The notes under the pieces were generated by a model. That model worked only from the letters and a program-made list of their open reading frames with translations, searched no databases and was not told the DNA's origin. From assembly GCF_006228385.1 (NCBI RefSeq), contig NZ_CP039852.1, forward strand, positions 3,674,001-3,738,000: a stretch of 64,000 nucleotides of DNA, in the 5' to 3' direction. Below are positions 37,026 to 42,200 of the stretch, piece by piece. A program made the position numbers and the translations under genes. The stretch is from Salinimonas iocasae (lineage in GTDB: Bacteria; Pseudomonadota; Gammaproteobacteria; Enterobacterales; Alteromonadaceae). Positions within the stretch are counted from its first letter, which is position 1. Every line of letters begins with the position of its first letter.

Positions 37026-37511
37026 TTGAAAACTCCTCTGATAACCCGTGGCGGATACCACAAACTTAAAGACGAGCTGGATTATCTGTGGCGCGAAGAA
37101 CGTCCTGAGGTCACTCGTAAAGTCACCTGGGCAGCGAGTCTTGGTGACAGAAGCGAAAATGCTGACTATCAATACAATAAAAAACGACTGCGTGAGATAG
37201 ATCGCCGGGTGAGATATCTGCGTAAATGCTTAGAACGATTGAAAGCCATTGACTACAACCCGGAGCAGGAAGGCCGGGTATTTTTCGGCGCCTGGGTCGA
37301 GATAGAAAATGATGAGGGAAAGACGCTAACCCTGCGCATCGCCGGTTACGATGAGATATTCGGTCGCAAAGATTATATCTCAGTGGACTCACCGATGGCG
37401 CGAGCCCTGTTGGGCAAGTACCCTGATGATGATGTGGTAGTTCGCACCGAAGCAGGAGTATTTGAGTGGTGGATAAATCGTATTTGGTACGATACAACAG
37501 ATAAATTATAA
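37026..37511 (+). CDS. greB: Transcription elongation factor GreB
   Basis: GreB rescues backtracked RNA polymerase by stimulating transcript cleavage. This 161-residue copy has the N-terminal coiled coil whose tip carries the acidic pair in SLGDRSENADYQYNKKRLRE, and a C-terminal FKBP-like domain (VFFGAWVEIENDEG, GYDEIFGRKDYISVDSPMA). The start must be the TTG at 37026: a TAA lies two codons upstream, no ATG fits, and the sequence from TTG (MKTPL) matches GreB proteins from residue 1. TTG starts are rare and may lower translation. Confidence 0.96.
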   Translation: MKTPLITRGGYHKLKDELDYLWREERPEVTRKVTWAASLGDRSENADYQYNKKRLREIDRRVRYLRKCLERLKAIDYNPEQEGRVFFGAWVEIENDEGKTLTLRIAGYDEIFGRKDYISVDSPMARALLGKYPDDDVVVRTEAGVFEWWINRIWYDTTDKL

Positions 37512-37586
37512 CCTGCAGGCTGCGCCACTACGCGCTGATATGTCATGCCATGGACAGGCCTGTGCCAATAAAAAGAAGGACATAAA

Positions 37587-38408
37587 ATGATGAAGTTTCG
37601 TCACGTGCTATTAGGTGCAGGATTGGTGATGGGCGCGTCGCTCCCCGCTTCCGCTCATGATTTCTGGTTGTCACCCGCTAAATATCAAATTTCGCCCGCC
37701 GCGACGGTCGCGGTGCAGTTCAAAGTCGGCCACAATGATAGCGCTGAAGACTGGAACCTGCGCTGGGATAAAGTGGTCGCTTTACGAAACTATACCCCTG
37801 ACGGCGTAGCCGACTTGTCAGCCAGTATTATCCAGAAATCTGATTTACTGCCTGGTGCGGCCAAAACGCAATCACTTGAAGCCGGAACCTATGTTATTGG
37901 ATTGGAAAGCTATCACAGTGTGAGTGAACTTAGCGCTGAGCCCTTTAACAACTATGTTGAGGAGGAAGGACTCACTGCGATCCACGATTACCGCCAGCAA
38001 AAAGGGCTGACCGGCACAGCAGGGACTGAGCTTTACTCACGCAAAGCCAAAACCATCATTCAGGTTGGCGACAAGCTGACAAAAAATGCCGTCCATCCTG
38101 TTGGGCATACCCTTGAAATTATTCCTGAGTCTCACCCTTACGATTTAGGTGAAAAAGCCGCGCTTCCCGTTAAAGTACTATTCAGAGGCCGTCCATTGGA
38201 AGGAGCGCTTATCAAATCCAGCGCGCTGAAGGGAGCCAACCACAAAGCGCAGTCGGTCAAAACAGACAGCGATGGCAAAGCGACAGTGTCGTTTGACGAA
38301 AAAGGGCCGGTAAAATTAAGTGTTGTATGGGGCGAGCCTCTGTCAGGTAACCCACGTGCAGATTTTGAGACTTATTTTTCAAGCCTGACATTTTCGGTAA
38401 ACAATTAG
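37587..38408 (+). CDS. DUF4198 periplasmic protein (NikM/CbiK-like fold family)
   Basis: This 273-residue secreted protein has a signal peptide cleaved just before HDFWLSPAKY, leaving His at or near the mature N-terminus as is typical of DUF4198. Two Ig-like beta domains follow, with LPVKVLFRGRPLEGALIKSS and SDGKATVSFDEKGPVKL. DUF4198 proteins are often found beside metal uptake systems, and the N-terminal His could bind metal (inference). No transporter lies adjacent. AAAAGAAGG precedes the start. Confidence 0.85.
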   Translation: MMKFRHVLLGAGLVMGASLPASAHDFWLSPAKYQISPAATVAVQFKVGHNDSAEDWNLRWDKVVALRNYTPDGVADLSASIIQKSDLLPGAAKTQSLEAGTYVIGLESYHSVSELSAEPFNNYVEEEGLTAIHDYRQQKGLTGTAGTELYSRKAKTIIQVGDKLTKNAVHPVGHTLEIIPESHPYDLGEKAALPVKVLFRGRPLEGALIKSSALKGANHKAQSVKTDSDGKATVSFDEKGPVKLSVVWGEPLSGNPRADFETYFSSLTFSVNN

Positions 38409-38600
38409 CGGGTTAGTCCTTTCGTGATAGTAAAAGTAGCGGCAAACTCATATTGGCAGAGAAAGCCGCTCTGCTAATAAACAATGGTTTGCAGATTATG
38501 TAAGCTTCTCAGTATTTCCCGTGTTGTGATTGAAGAAATTAATGCCTAACGTGCATTTTTCCTTCCTGGTGCTTTATTCTCGAGGTACTTCAGCACCGGA

Positions 38601-38628
38601 GCTCGCCTGCTAAAAGAAAGCGGCGAGC
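38601..38628. terminator. Hairpin downstream of the sulfatase gene
   Basis: The stem GCTCGCC/GGCGAGC (38601-38607 with 38622-38628) is perfect with a 14-nt loop, 16 bp beyond the sulfatase stop. There is no T-run on the minus strand, so it is a weak or Rho-assisted end at best. The rest of the 38409-38644 gap shows only another T-less inverted repeat. Confidence 0.35.
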
Positions 38629-38644
38629 ATGTACTTGGTTATTT

Positions 38645-40201
38645 TTACCGATTAATGTTCTGTGAATTTATAAATTCGCTGACATTGGACACCTGTGCTG
38701 AAAAGCTCTTCTGGGTTGGTGGAAACTTTTCAAAGCTTTTAACGAACTCTGCTATTTGATTGCCAGCAGGTCCAAGGGTCCAGGAGCGATTTTCTGCCCA
38801 CTCATCATAACCTCTTGCTTCAATGAACCGCTCGAATGGATCCAGTTTCAGATTAATAATATAAGGTGTGGTCATTTCCTGCTGGGAGGCGCGGAACCAC
38901 TCTTCCTGATCGATGAACAAAAACTTCCAGTCTCCATAGCGCATGCCGTGGAAAGTTGTTTCTGTAAAATAATAAAACTCTTTTCGATTGGAAGGCCCCT
39001 GATTTAAGAGGATATCTGTTTGATCATAGCCATCAAGATGCGCTGTTTGCGATTCACCATCAACCTTCATTCCTGTTAGTAGTGACTCTTTGACGTTCTT
39101 ATCACCAACTATAGACATTAACGTGGGTAGCCAATCCTCCATTGTTATAAACTCCCCGGTGTGCGTGCCGGCTGGAATGTTGCCGGGCCATTTAACAAGC
39201 ATAGGAACCCGGAAGCCGCCCTCCCAGCCGCCAACACCTTTTTCGCCGTGAAATGGCTGATTGCCACCGTCTGGCCAGGAATTGGAAGCAGCACCATTGT
39301 CAGTAGAAAACATCACAATGGTATTGTCTGCTATCTTCAGCTCATCAAGCAGATCAAGCAACTCCCCAACGTCATCATCCAGCTCCATCATGCCGTCAGC
39401 ATAGATACCATAACCGCTCTTGCCTTGATATTCCTCGTTCAGATTAGTGCGATAATGCATACGCGTAGTGTTATGCCATACAAAGAAGGGCGCATCTTTT
39501 TTGGCTGCTTCACGAATAAAACGCTTAGATTCCTCCAGAACATCCTGATCGAGATTACGCTGCACTTCCTGTCCAAAAGAACCTAGATCTTCTATTTGCT
39601 GCGTGCCATCAGGTAAGGCCTTAGAATGGATAATGCCGCGCATTTTCAGGTTAAGTTTTTCCTGTGCATCTTCTTCTTTTGGATAGTCGTATTGCTCTGA
39701 ATATTCACCTGCATTGAGATGATAAAGAATGCCATAAAACTCATCAAAACCATGATTCGTTGGCAGGTGTTCGTCTCTATCGCCCAAGTGATTTTTGCCA
39801 AACTGGCCGGTGATGTAACCTTTGTCTTTAAGCATTTCCGCCAGTGTGGGAACATCCTCCTGTAAGCCTTGTTCAGCACCGGGCAGGCCCACAGTGCTCA
39901 GCCCGATTCGAATAGGATACTGCCCGGTCAAAAATGCTGCGCGCCCGGCGGTGCAAGAAGCCTGAGCATAATGGTCCATAAAAATCATGCCTTCCTGCGC
40001 AATGCTATCGATATTAGGTGTAGACCCGCCCATCATGCCACGGTGATAAGCACTAATATTCCACATGCCGACATCATCCCCCCAAATAACAAGAATATTG
40101 GGTTTGTTGTTATCTTGTGCGACAGAAATTGGAATTGTTAGGAGGGCAAAGAAAGAAATGAGAAAACTACGCAATAAAATACTTCCAAAGAGGCGATTCA
40201 T
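38645..40201 (-). CDS. Secreted arylsulfatase (formylglycine-dependent, Cys type)
   Basis: This 518-residue type I sulfatase has a signal peptide (RSFLISFFALLTIPISVAQ). The calcium site begins LVIWGDDVGMW. The active-site motif SCTAGRAAFLTGQ puts the Cys at residue 83, which a formylglycine-generating enzyme would convert. GQFGKNHLGDRDEHLPTNHG and STDNGAASNSWPDGGNQPFH are further family signatures. The CxAxR form is common in marine sulfatases, whose substrates are often sulfated polysaccharides or aryl sulfates; the substrate here is undetermined. The gene stands alone, without a maturation enzyme, transporter or glycoside hydrolase next to it. Confidence 0.9.
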   Translation of the reverse strand: MNRLFGSILLRSFLISFFALLTIPISVAQDNNKPNILVIWGDDVGMWNISAYHRGMMGGSTPNIDSIAQEGMIFMDHYAQASCTAGRAAFLTGQYPIRIGLSTVGLPGAEQGLQEDVPTLAEMLKDKGYITGQFGKNHLGDRDEHLPTNHGFDEFYGILYHLNAGEYSEQYDYPKEEDAQEKLNLKMRGIIHSKALPDGTQQIEDLGSFGQEVQRNLDQDVLEESKRFIREAAKKDAPFFVWHNTTRMHYRTNLNEEYQGKSGYGIYADGMMELDDDVGELLDLLDELKIADNTIVMFSTDNGAASNSWPDGGNQPFHGEKGVGGWEGGFRVPMLVKWPGNIPAGTHTGEFITMEDWLPTLMSIVGDKNVKESLLTGMKVDGESQTAHLDGYDQTDILLNQGPSNRKEFYYFTETTFHGMRYGDWKFLFIDQEEWFRASQQEMTTPYIINLKLDPFERFIEARGYDEWAENRSWTLGPAGNQIAEFVKSFEKFPPTQKSFSAQVSNVSEFINSQNINR

Positions 40202-40724
40202 AGGAAATCCTGACTAGGTTGAAAAAGTTTTTACAGCATGAGTATTTTAAAACCTAGTGTATAATTTTCGTTCAGGCAAATGATTATTTGCTTTTTAATG
40301 TAATGCCTGCGCTAAGCAGCCTGATGGTTATTAATGGAAGAATATTTTTTCTCACACAGGCAACGTTCACCAACTATTATGGCTCGAAACCGTCAAGGGT
40401 AGGTGTCAAATAAACAGGTGGGCAATTGGCAGAACTGGTGAAGAATGCGCGATTATTTTGTGTCGTGGCTTGAGTTAAATCGTTATCCGGCAATCTGCGC
40501 GTCGATTTTAAAATCTATTTCTCGAAATGAACTTCACTGTTACTCCCACTAGAAAACAATCAGCTTGTATAGCTTAATAAAAGAAAGTTCAACTGCGCTC
40601 GTTTCACGTAGGTAGAGCTCTACCGATAGGCCTTTCTCAAAACCATTTTATAGTCTCTTATATCGTCTTGTAGTGTTGATGTTCAACACGATTCTGCCAA
40701 TCACCATCGTAGATACAAAAAGGG
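40202..40724. other. Non-coding stretch between sulfatase and small membrane protein
   Basis: About 520 bp with no convincing gene on either strand; all frames are broken by stops. It must hold the sulfatase promoter. It includes a perfect 14-bp palindrome GGTAGAGCTCTACC at 40611-40624 and an inverted repeat GTGTTGA/TCAACAC at 40673-40679 and 40683-40689, either of which could be a protein-binding site or hairpin. Confidence 0.6.
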
Positions 40725-40868
40725 TTAGCTCCAAGCTAAGACAATCATCTCTATCACACCGTTTACAATAAAAACCGCCGACACGCCAATCATTAGCCCT
40801 GATACAAAAACGCGTCTTATGTCGCAACGTGAAAAATCGGCACTATCACATTTTTTCGTAAAAAGCAC
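40725..40868 (-). CDS. 47-residue single-span membrane protein, candidate bacteriocin immunity protein
   Basis: Hand translation of the minus strand gives a 47-codon frame starting with GTG at 40868 and ending TAA at 40725. A perfect AAGGAG (40875-40880) stands six bases before the GTG. The product has a charged, Cys-containing N-terminus (MLFTKKCDSADFSRCDIRR) and then one hydrophobic span (VFVSGLMIGVSAVFIVNGVI) to the end. It lies 62 bp downstream of the double-glycine peptide gene on the same strand, separated by a hairpin. Small membrane proteins immediately downstream are the usual immunity determinants of class II microcins. That role is inferred from position and topology; no sequence homology is claimed. 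Confidence 0.55.
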   Translation of the reverse strand: MLFTKKCDSADFSRCDIRRVFVSGLMIGVSAVFIVNGVIEMIVLAWS

Positions 40869-40884
40869 ATCCTACTCCTTTTTG

Positions 40885-40906
40885 ACCCGCTTCAAGAGAA
40901 GCGGGT
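40885..40906 (-). other. Stem-loop between bacteriocin-like gene and small membrane protein gene
   Basis: A perfect 9-bp stem ACCCGCTTC/GAAGCGGGT (40885-40893 with 40898-40906) has a 4-nt loop, 24 bp after the precursor stop and just before the Shine-Dalgarno of the 47-codon gene. No T-run follows on the minus strand, so it more likely tunes mRNA stability or differential expression than terminates. Confidence 0.55.
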
Positions 40907-40930
40907 ATTTACCGGCAGTATTGGCCAATA

Positions 40931-41194
40931 TTAAGGCCAATTGTGGTACAAATAAGAACCTGTAAGAGCCAGACTAGTACCGATGAAAAGAGCTGCACCG
41001 AAAGGGGCAAGCACCGCTCCTGCAGCGTAAAGCCCGACTCCAGCACCGACGAACCCCATCTGCGCTCCAATTTGAGTTGACTGGCTAATTCCCCCATTAA
41101 CTGCTGCCATCTCATCGCTATTCAAAACAATGACTGAAGAGCCATTTTTGTTATCCTCTGAAGTATGATTAGTCTCGCTATAATCCTTCAGCAT
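40931..41194 (-). CDS. Putative double-glycine leader bacteriocin/microcin precursor
   Basis: An 87-residue peptide starting at the ATG at 41194, preceded by AAAGGA. Residues 1-35 form an acidic, Ser/Asn-rich leader ending VIVLNSDEMAAVNGG, which fits the LxxxEMxxVxGG consensus cut by C39 peptidase-ABC exporters. The 52-residue core is hydrophobic and Gly/Ala-rich (nine of each), has GxxxG-like spacing (GFVGAGVGLYAAG) and no Cys, and ends SYLYHNWP, resembling pore-forming class II bacteriocins. A small membrane protein gene follows. No exporter or peptidase is in the window, so export would rely on a distant locus. It could alternatively be a secreted signalling peptide. Confidence 0.7.
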   Translation of the reverse strand: MLKDYSETNHTSEDNKNGSSVIVLNSDEMAAVNGGISQSTQIGAQMGFVGAGVGLYAAGAVLAPFGAALFIGTSLALTGSYLYHNWP

Positions 41195-41789
41195 AGAAAG
41201 TCCTTTTCGTTTAATTTAAAAACACCAAAAATGTATTGCTTTGTTGATGATATCTTAATTGCGTATCATCAGGATTAACCTTCGTATAAGAAGCGGTTTC
41301 AGCACACCTGTATTCACGAACAGATTATATGACTCAATATGCCCTTGTCTGTTCTAAGGTGTGCCCCGAAAACACCATCAATGTCTTGTGTTCCATTCTG
41401 CAGTTCAACAGTTACAAGGAAGAAACCGAGGGTTCACAGAAGCAGACTAGTACTATTTAGTTTTCAACGCACGATTAACAATATGATTTTTTGGAAAAGG
41501 CGTACTTGCCACCAACCTGATATCGCCCAAAATCGAATGATTCATCCCCTTCCTCATTTTTTAGCACAACTACGATACCTGCCGCATAGAAATGAGATGT
41601 TGAGGTGTAGTACAGAGTAAGAGGAAAAGCTCCTTGCCCATTAGCTTGTGCAATCAATCTGTAACTGTTTTCGTTTAAAGATATTTAAAGCGGCAATTGT
41701 GGTGAGGCATTTACTCCCTTACAGTCAACCAGATTCAAGTGACAAAGAAATAGGCCTATTGTTGAAGGCCGGAATATCTTAAGGAAGAT
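41195..41789. other. Region upstream of the bacteriocin-like gene: possible promoter and gene debris
   Basis: About 600 bp without a well-supported gene. An inverted repeat GATGATA/TATCATC (41246-41252 with 41264-41270) lies 52-76 bp before the precursor start and may be an operator. On the minus strand a frame is open from 41684 to 41475 and reads as protein-like (LTLYYTSTSHFYAAGIVVVL, then GRYQVGGKYAFSKKSYC), but it has only a TTG start at 41657 and no Shine-Dalgarno. A second protein-like stretch without a start (VTVELQNGTQDIDGVFGAHL) lies between about 41450 and 41310. These could be remnants of decayed genes or chance. Confidence 0.35.
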
Positions 41790-42200
41790 CTAAATAATCT
41801 TCTTGCGCAATTGTTTACGCTCACCTTGCTGTTTCTTGGCCTTAATTCGCTTTTCCTTGGCACCTTTACTGACTTTAGTTGGCTTTCGCGTCTTTTTCAC
41901 CACCAGCGCCTGTGCAATCCACGCGACCAGACGCTCCTGCGCATCAAAGCGGTTTTGCTCCTGCGTACGATAGTTCTGCGCCTTCAGCACAAAAACACCG
42001 TCAGTATTAATCCTACTGTCGGGCTTACTCAGTAATTTTTCTTTAACGTGGTCCGGCAGCGAAGATGCTGCAATATCAAATCGTAGATGAATCGCAGAAT
42101 TCACTTTGTTTACATTCTGACCTCCAGCACCCTGTGCGCGGATTGCGGTCATCTCTACTTCACTTTCATCGATTTGTATCGACGAAGAAATGTTTATCAT
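41790..42200 (-). CDS. arfB: Alternative ribosome-rescue factor B (peptidyl-tRNA hydrolase)
   Basis: ArfB (YaeJ) releases peptides from ribosomes stalled on non-stop mRNA without needing a stop codon. The start is the ATG at 42200 (MINISSSIQIDESEVEM), giving 136 residues against about 140 in E. coli. The catalytic GGQ is at about 26-28 within RAQGAGGQNVNKVNSAIHLR. The C-terminal Lys/Arg-rich tail (KEKRIKAKKQQGERKQLRKK) that enters the empty mRNA channel is complete. It is a monocistronic minus-strand gene. Confidence 0.95.
   Translation of the reverse strand: MINISSSIQIDESEVEMTAIRAQGAGGQNVNKVNSAIHLRFDIAASSLPDHVKEKLLSKPDSRINTDGVFVLKAQNYRTQEQNRFDAQERLVAWIAQALVVKKTRKPTKVSKGAKEKRIKAKKQQGERKQLRKKII

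Follow-up and report, generated by a model that had tools for sequence, protein, structure and literature searches.

A microcin-like pair of precursor and small membrane protein genes in Salinimonas iocasae, probably served in trans by a single distant C39 exporter

The window, a 64-kb stretch (64,000 nucleotides) of the Salinimonas iocasae genome, contains a pair of small genes that is best explained as a microcin-like precursor/immunity cassette without an exporter of its own, probably served in trans by the lone C39 exporter of the genome. In the proposed mechanism, the 87-aa precursor would be recognised by the only C39 ABC exporter of the genome (G000:C1, near 504 kb), cut after the Gly-Gly motif, and the peptide would pass out of the cell by way of this exporter, the HlyD protein next to it and a TolC-type channel. 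The Gly/Ala-rich core of 52 aa would target the inner membrane of related bacteria, and the 47-aa single-span protein, encoded behind a hairpin on the same transcript, would guard the producer. The pair would thus be a self-contained accessory cassette travelling without its exporter. Co-transcription, cleavage, secretion, killing and immunity are what we infer for this pair. The features of the window referred to below are as follows.

40931-41194, minus strand: precursor gene, 87 codons, ATG start
41090..41194, minus strand: leader, 35 codons, ending L-12 ... M-7 .. V-4 N G-2 G-1
40934..41089, minus strand: core, 52 codons, Gly/Ala-rich, Cys-free
41201..41207, minus strand: precursor Shine-Dalgarno site AAAAGGA, 6 nt upstream of the ATG
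40725-40868, minus strand: small membrane protein gene, 47 codons, GTG start, 62 nt past the precursor stop
40875..40880, minus strand: Shine-Dalgarno site AAGGAG of the small gene, 6 nt upstream of the GTG
40885..40906, minus strand: 9-bp G+C-rich hairpin between both genes, no T run after the stem
41308..41323, minus strand: CTGT-N8-ACAG, candidate LexA-like operator, touching TATAAT at 41324-41329
37511-41793: variable interval between greB and the RF-1-domain gene
41487-41796, minus strand: broken remnant of a beta-lactamase-family serine hydrolase gene, next to the pair

An earlier sequence-only reading had described a gene with a double-glycine leader and a Cys-free core, followed on the same strand by a gene for a one-span protein, both with strong Shine-Dalgarno sites; its coordinates are exact and both sites are present. 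The precursor leader terminates in ...LNSDEMAAVNGG, and its end, L-12 N S D E M-7 A A V-4 N G G, is of the canonical double-glycine type and agrees with the C39 signal pattern given in PMC11494933. The ATG start occupies the same place in all four close copies of the gene, and an in-frame TTG at codon 24 has no visible Shine-Dalgarno site. Glycine and alanine each account for 17.3% of the core, and glycine for 13.8% of the whole precursor; the unmodified core has a calculated mass of 5217 Da. When all six frames of the 64-kb window were scanned with a single GG-leader pattern, the precursor ORF was the sole match. An AlphaFold model of the precursor predicts helices at residues 38-58 and 62-85 with low confidence (mean pLDDT 67.4, pTM 0.26); such a two-helix core would fit membrane action, of which it is no proof.

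The 47-aa protein, comprising one hydrophobic span and encoded next to the precursor gene, is a candidate immunity protein. All 12 core-family loci whose downstream DNA was read encode, 10-89 nt past the precursor stop, a partner of 37-59 aa that has a single strongly hydrophobic stretch, the partner start being unsure in L038; since the loci were found via the precursor alone, the pairing is an independent observation. The stretch [RK]-x-F-[VI]-[SA]-G-x-x-I-G is common to the partners of the window group, L034, L040 and L074, the last of which belongs to another taxonomic family. The partners of L036 and L037 match it more loosely, in those of L035, L038 and L039 it is not obvious, and the partner homologues vary much in length and tail. 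A model of the partner (A6) gave five strong matches in 395 genomes, which confirm nothing because they are the same five loci that were used to build it; no further strong free-standing partner was found by this model in these genomes. Three weak A6 matches (L071-L073) had no GG peptide alongside and were taken as chance. The window also contains a 26-nt direct repeat (77%), with one copy (40785-40810) within the small gene and the other (40696-40721) just behind it.

The stems of the hairpin between the two genes are matched in the three other close copies. Strong stems of unrelated sequence occupy the same intergenic place in L035, L036, L037, L038 and L042; the stem lies further downstream in L039, and merely weak ones are present in L034 and L040. 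A standard terminator was considered and rejected for the window, where no T run stands behind the stem. For this reason the hairpin is more likely to be an RNA-stability or partial read-through element, which could set the ratio of toxin to immunity protein.

The same two genes in the same order are present in Salinimonas profundi (L002), 'Alteromonas indica' (L003) and Salinimonas chungwhensis (L004), which bears out the two-gene unit suggested by the sequence-only reading. Identity to the window is 78, 69 and 66%, respectively, for the precursor and 74, 60 and 60% for the small protein. When the close copies are compared pairwise (six pairs), 2-6 first, 0-5 second and 15-29 third codon positions of the core differ, with dN of 0.017-0.095, dS of 0.53-2.4 (values above 1 being rough) and dN/dS of 0.03-0.11. 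For the leader and the small gene, dN/dS amounts to 0.14-0.80 and 0.14-0.39, respectively. The last 16 core residues are identical across the four close copies. These comparisons indicate strong purifying selection, which acts on the core rather than the leader. Since the pair recurs in three related genomes with purifying selection on the core, both the precursor and the small gene are evidently real genes. Their presence is patchy, with close copies in four of 32 genomes sampled from the genus.

Searching with 12 aligned sequences revealed a family of 47 protein clusters, one of which is that of the window. Alignment A7 comprises the window sequence and 41 of the 47 matches, leaving out P0001 (identical to the window), P0033, P0041, P0042, P0044 and P0045. 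The double-glycine motif is kept throughout these relatives: the leader ends in GG in 37 and in GA in 5 of the 42 aligned sequences, followed by a core of 48-71 aa. Hydrophobic residues are found at all of positions -12, -7 and -4 in 38 of the 42 homologues, and at -4 and -12 in 40. The commonest leader is 15 aa long (28/42), and leader codons 1-20 of the window represent an extension absent from these 28 homologues; a leader of 35 aa is seen solely in the four close copies, that of the window included, and the annotation of one metagenome ORF gives it a leader of 47 aa. Named holders of the family include Salinimonas, Thalassotalea, Psychrosphaera, Pseudoalteromonas, Shewanella and Phyllobacterium. 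Precursor matches were found in 19 of 395 genomes of the taxonomic family, 12 of them at E < 1e-5; the seven weaker ones (E above 1e-5) may represent other GG families. An order-wide sample gave matches at E 1e-5 in three of 394 genomes, two of these in the genus of the window. Judged by these searches, the precursor family is rare and patchy. No relatives were found by tblastn against plasmid and phage collections, nor in viral contigs. No description of the precursor family was found in the available text of the literature on microcins, GG export, GG surveys and Salinimonas bacteriocins (including PMC8749424), which leaves its absence from print unproven.

The sequence-only reading had made the pair dependent on a C39 peptidase-ABC exporter elsewhere in the genome, and one unlinked C39 ABC exporter with an HlyD-type membrane fusion partner was indeed identified. 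Of the grounds for refutation named in that reading, neither a genome devoid of C39 exporters nor a loss of the leader motif was encountered, the 42 aligned sequences all having GG or GA. The genome (G000; 4.16 Mb in 2 contigs, 100% estimated completeness) contains a single C39 match (C1:504220-504606), located within a 721-aa ABC exporter. The precursor lies at C1:3714934-3715194, about 0.6 Mb from the exporter if the 3.81-Mb contig is circular and 3.2 Mb otherwise. Cys28, His101 and Asp117 of the exporter align with PCAT1, in which these positions are reported to constitute the catalytic triad (PMC10233263). Proteins of the OEP/TolC family are also encoded (PF02321 above its cut-off, 12 domain matches). 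Encoded next to the exporter are an HlyD protein of 417 aa, a GG peptide of 62 aa whose leader ends in VNGG, and an ATP-grasp enzyme, a relative of peptide maturases that scores 138 bits with TIGR04187, below the cut-off of 350; a LuxR-type ORF lies there too. This arrangement could represent a graspetide-type cluster with a GG leader. The LuxR-type ORF, 129 aa long, overlaps the end of the exporter gene (locus L005 6507-11408, minus strand).

A second unlinked GG unit is present in the same genome at C1:3053948-3054175 (L042 8943-9131, minus strand) and consists of a 62-aa precursor, a strong hairpin and a 57-aa protein. Taking together the GG peptide beside the exporter, this second unit and the precursor of the window, the one exporter faces at least three candidate precursors. 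C39 matches also occur in the three close relatives, one each in L002 and L003 and two in L004, all on contigs other than that of the pair. The second match in S. chungwhensis is a 245-aa frame; this species retains the full-length exporter and HlyD, and neither an ATP-grasp relative nor a GG-pattern ORF was found in the 17-kb stretch of its exporter region. This fits retention of the exporter for substrates that would be located elsewhere.

Across the 395 genomes, C39 is present in all 19 precursor-positive genomes and in 250 of the 376 others (Fisher p 5.5e-4, uncorrected for phylogeny); outside the genus the co-occurrence has a Fisher p of 0.009, likewise uncorrected. A C39 match is found in 31 of the 32 same-genus genomes listed. 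The mere presence of C39 is therefore weak evidence, and its co-occurrence with the precursor within the genus is uninformative because it is near-universal there. Three core-family precursors (L034, L036 and L039), and likewise the remote relative L044, are located beside C39-ABC and HlyD genes. Another eight core-family loci have no linked exporter, namely the window, L002-L004, L035, L037, L038 and L040, a count that leaves out L041 (contig end) and L074 (short locus). The 18-kb stretches of L035, L037, L038 and L040 contained no exporter match, and where C39 is listed for these genomes, it is on a different contig or separated by at least about 85 kb; the genome of L040 (G046) has a second C39 match whose place is outside this listing. 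In L034 (2497-11878, minus strand), HlyD and a complete C39-ABC gene, along with a second ABC match that is partial, have six GG-pattern ORFs nearby, the homologue of the window precursor among them.

The pair resides in the variable interval between greB and an RF-1-domain gene, which we take to be arfB-like. In the window and in L002, this interval contains a DUF4198 gene, a sulfatase gene, the gene pair and the beta-lactamase-family gene, the last broken in the window and whole (447 aa) in L002 (6447-7790). The regions around tex were read in five relatives (L089-L093). In L090 and L091 the interval is closed, the aligned ends of greB and the RF-1-domain gene being 8-20 bp apart; in L092 and L093, greB adjoins tex and no relative of the RF-1-domain gene was found. 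The interval of S. chungwhensis (L089) contains the DUF4198 gene and other cargo, and the gene pair is located elsewhere; in all, the pair lies outside the greB interval in two relatives. Around the pair, about 1.0 kb is common to L003 and L004, which diverge beyond it save for short repeat matches. No repeats bracketing the pair were found, and short repeats are present. Taken in this setting, the cassette is accessory. PADLOC and PHROGs searches gave nothing relevant, and Rfam and tRNA scans of the window gave nothing.

Upstream of the precursor, the LexA-like operator candidate makes SOS control of the locus a lead only. CTG-N10-CAG is kept at -124 to -129 in all four close copies, and the adjoining TATAAT is, by eye, absent from the other three. 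CTGT-N8-ACAG occurs 75 times in the 4.16 Mb of G000, compared with 29 for the reversed control. CTG-N10-CAG was found within 300 nt of three of 14 distant precursors and of none of the exporter-locus genes tested (both); the nearest site before lexA is merely similar to a LexA-like box, and a promoter scan for LexA-like sites found 2, compared with 3.0 in shuffles. An inverted repeat in the 5' UTR folds no better than shuffles in three of the four copies and was dropped.

Several observations count against the preferred reading, among them the near-universality of C39 in the genus, family models that all stay below their cut-offs, the weakness of seven of the 19 genome matches, the rarity of the family and the poor visibility of the partner motif in L035-L039. 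The exporter has its own GG peptide and ATP-grasp enzyme alongside, and may be specific for them. The core is also more conserved than the partner, which is not what one would usually expect of a toxin and an immunity protein that diversify jointly. This strong conservation of the core is the chief reason why the main rival is a secreted GG peptide that is not a toxin, serving as a signal or matrix component; it would use the same exporter, and the small membrane protein would be its receptor or helper. The GG peptides reported to be involved in biofilm formation in Synechococcus (PMC4997328) are a precedent for such a role, and the very strong purifying selection on the core, up to the invariant last 16 residues, is in line with it. 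We consider it unlikely all the same, given the patchy presence of the pair in the genus, the multi-precursor exporter clusters in relatives and the cassette-like placement.

Three further explanations are less probable still. Both products are small and hydrophobic, as in a two-component bacteriocin whose second active peptide or export helper, rather than immunity protein, would be the 47-aa product; the small protein has no GG motif, however, and its homologues differ much in length and tail, which makes this reading improbable. Decay of an unexpressed leftover from a lost exporter cluster would agree with the broken serine hydrolase gene and the lack of a nearby exporter, and is nonetheless very improbable in view of the preserved open frames, start codons and Shine-Dalgarno sites, with both genes showing a dN/dS well below 1. 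A toxin-antitoxin pair acting at the membrane from inside the cell could have equally tiny hydrophobic products, but its GG motif would be there by chance; the motif is GG or GA in all 42 aligned homologues, hydrophobic residues at -4 and -12 are nearly constant and some homologues reside in C39/HlyD clusters, so that we regard such a pair as very unlikely. A microcin-like cassette exported in trans has the best support.

A broader proposal, which we advance tentatively, is a hub-and-spoke microcin economy in Alteromonadaceae-type bacteria, in which one chromosomal C39 exporter would serve several unlinked, separately mobile cassettes of about 0.5-1 kb, each consisting of precursor, hairpin and immunity gene. 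If this is true, strains could gain or lose a weapon, or immunity alone, without moving the exporter. Closeness to an exporter is among the criteria of one microcin search (PMC11494933), which, like that of PMC9746304, takes ten E. coli and Klebsiella microcins as its starting point. Cassettes that lack an exporter are easily missed outside these bacteria. With its 47 clusters, recognisable partner and both linked and unlinked members, the family makes export in trans and the travel of bare cassettes testable. Exporter sharing within one cluster is known; in the available text of the sources consulted, we found no description of a cassette that has unlinked relatives in several genera and lies hundreds of kilobases from its exporter.

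According to PMC10233263, PMC11494933 and PMC9746304, class II microcins have leaders of 15-18 aa, cores of 60-90 aa and immunity proteins of 51-216 aa (the latter two for verified systems), and an exporter that is usually nearby; in PMC9746304, an exporter in the same assembly, such as this genome has, suffices as a criterion and the adjacency of components is not always neat. The class II assignment of the sequence-only reading stands in part. The GG leader with hydrophobic V-4, M-7 and L-12, the glycine content (12-26% in the class), the C39 exporter with its triad and fusion partner, and the TolC-type outer-membrane factor (PF02321) agree with it. The 35-aa leader, the 52-aa core and the position of the exporter, near the precursor in L034, L036 and L039 and not in the window, do not. 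The partner is adjacent and hydrophobic like an immunity protein of the class, and its 47 aa with one span are below the published size range. Because leader length, core length, partner size and exporter proximity are outside the published norms, the pair is described here as microcin-like, in the sense of probably working like one, and is not filed as a member of class II.

Bacteriocin models, which the sequence-only reading had proposed for the precursor, did not support a family assignment, as no family model reached its curated cut-off with the window precursor or any relative tested. The MccV model gave no match to the window precursor at E<=1, and weak matches (E 0.04-0.07, 14-15 bits vs 27) to three of the eight precursors scanned. 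Bacteriocin_IIc (PF10439) scored 20.3 bits against a gathering cut-off of 27.1 over residues 23-68 of the window precursor, and TIGR03949 (lactobin A/cerein 7B) scored 20.3 bits against 21.5 on L036; NCBIfam gave only weak, unrelated names for the window precursor. The resemblance to the Bacteriocin_IIc and TIGR03949 families, which are mainly Gram-positive, is in the leader type, and the scores remain below the curated cut-offs.

Like class IIa microcins of the microcin V type (CvaC/Cvi/CvaA/CvaB), the pair combines a GG leader, a Gly-rich hydrophobic core and an adjacent small membrane protein, and a C39 ABC, HlyD and TolC-type route is available in the genome; it differs from them, as they are described in the sources above, in leader, core and partner size and in its non-adjacent exporter. 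The mcbABCI locus of Moraxella catarrhalis, as reported in PMC2761928, likewise consists of a GG peptide gene followed by a tiny immunity gene, with export by an ABC transporter and fusion protein, and strains differ in whether the predicted McbC has an additional 24 N-terminal residues ahead of the leader, resembling the extension in the window. Its four genes are transcriptionally linked and those for precursor and immunity overlap, whereas the window has a hairpin between the two genes and no linked exporter; this comparison was made without sequences. Microcins H47 and M are encoded in one gene cluster, unlike the window precursor, which lies at least 0.6 Mb from its putative exporter, and their shared export, as described in PMC10233263 and PMC13101503, resembles the arrangement proposed here in that more than one GG precursor is handled per exporter.
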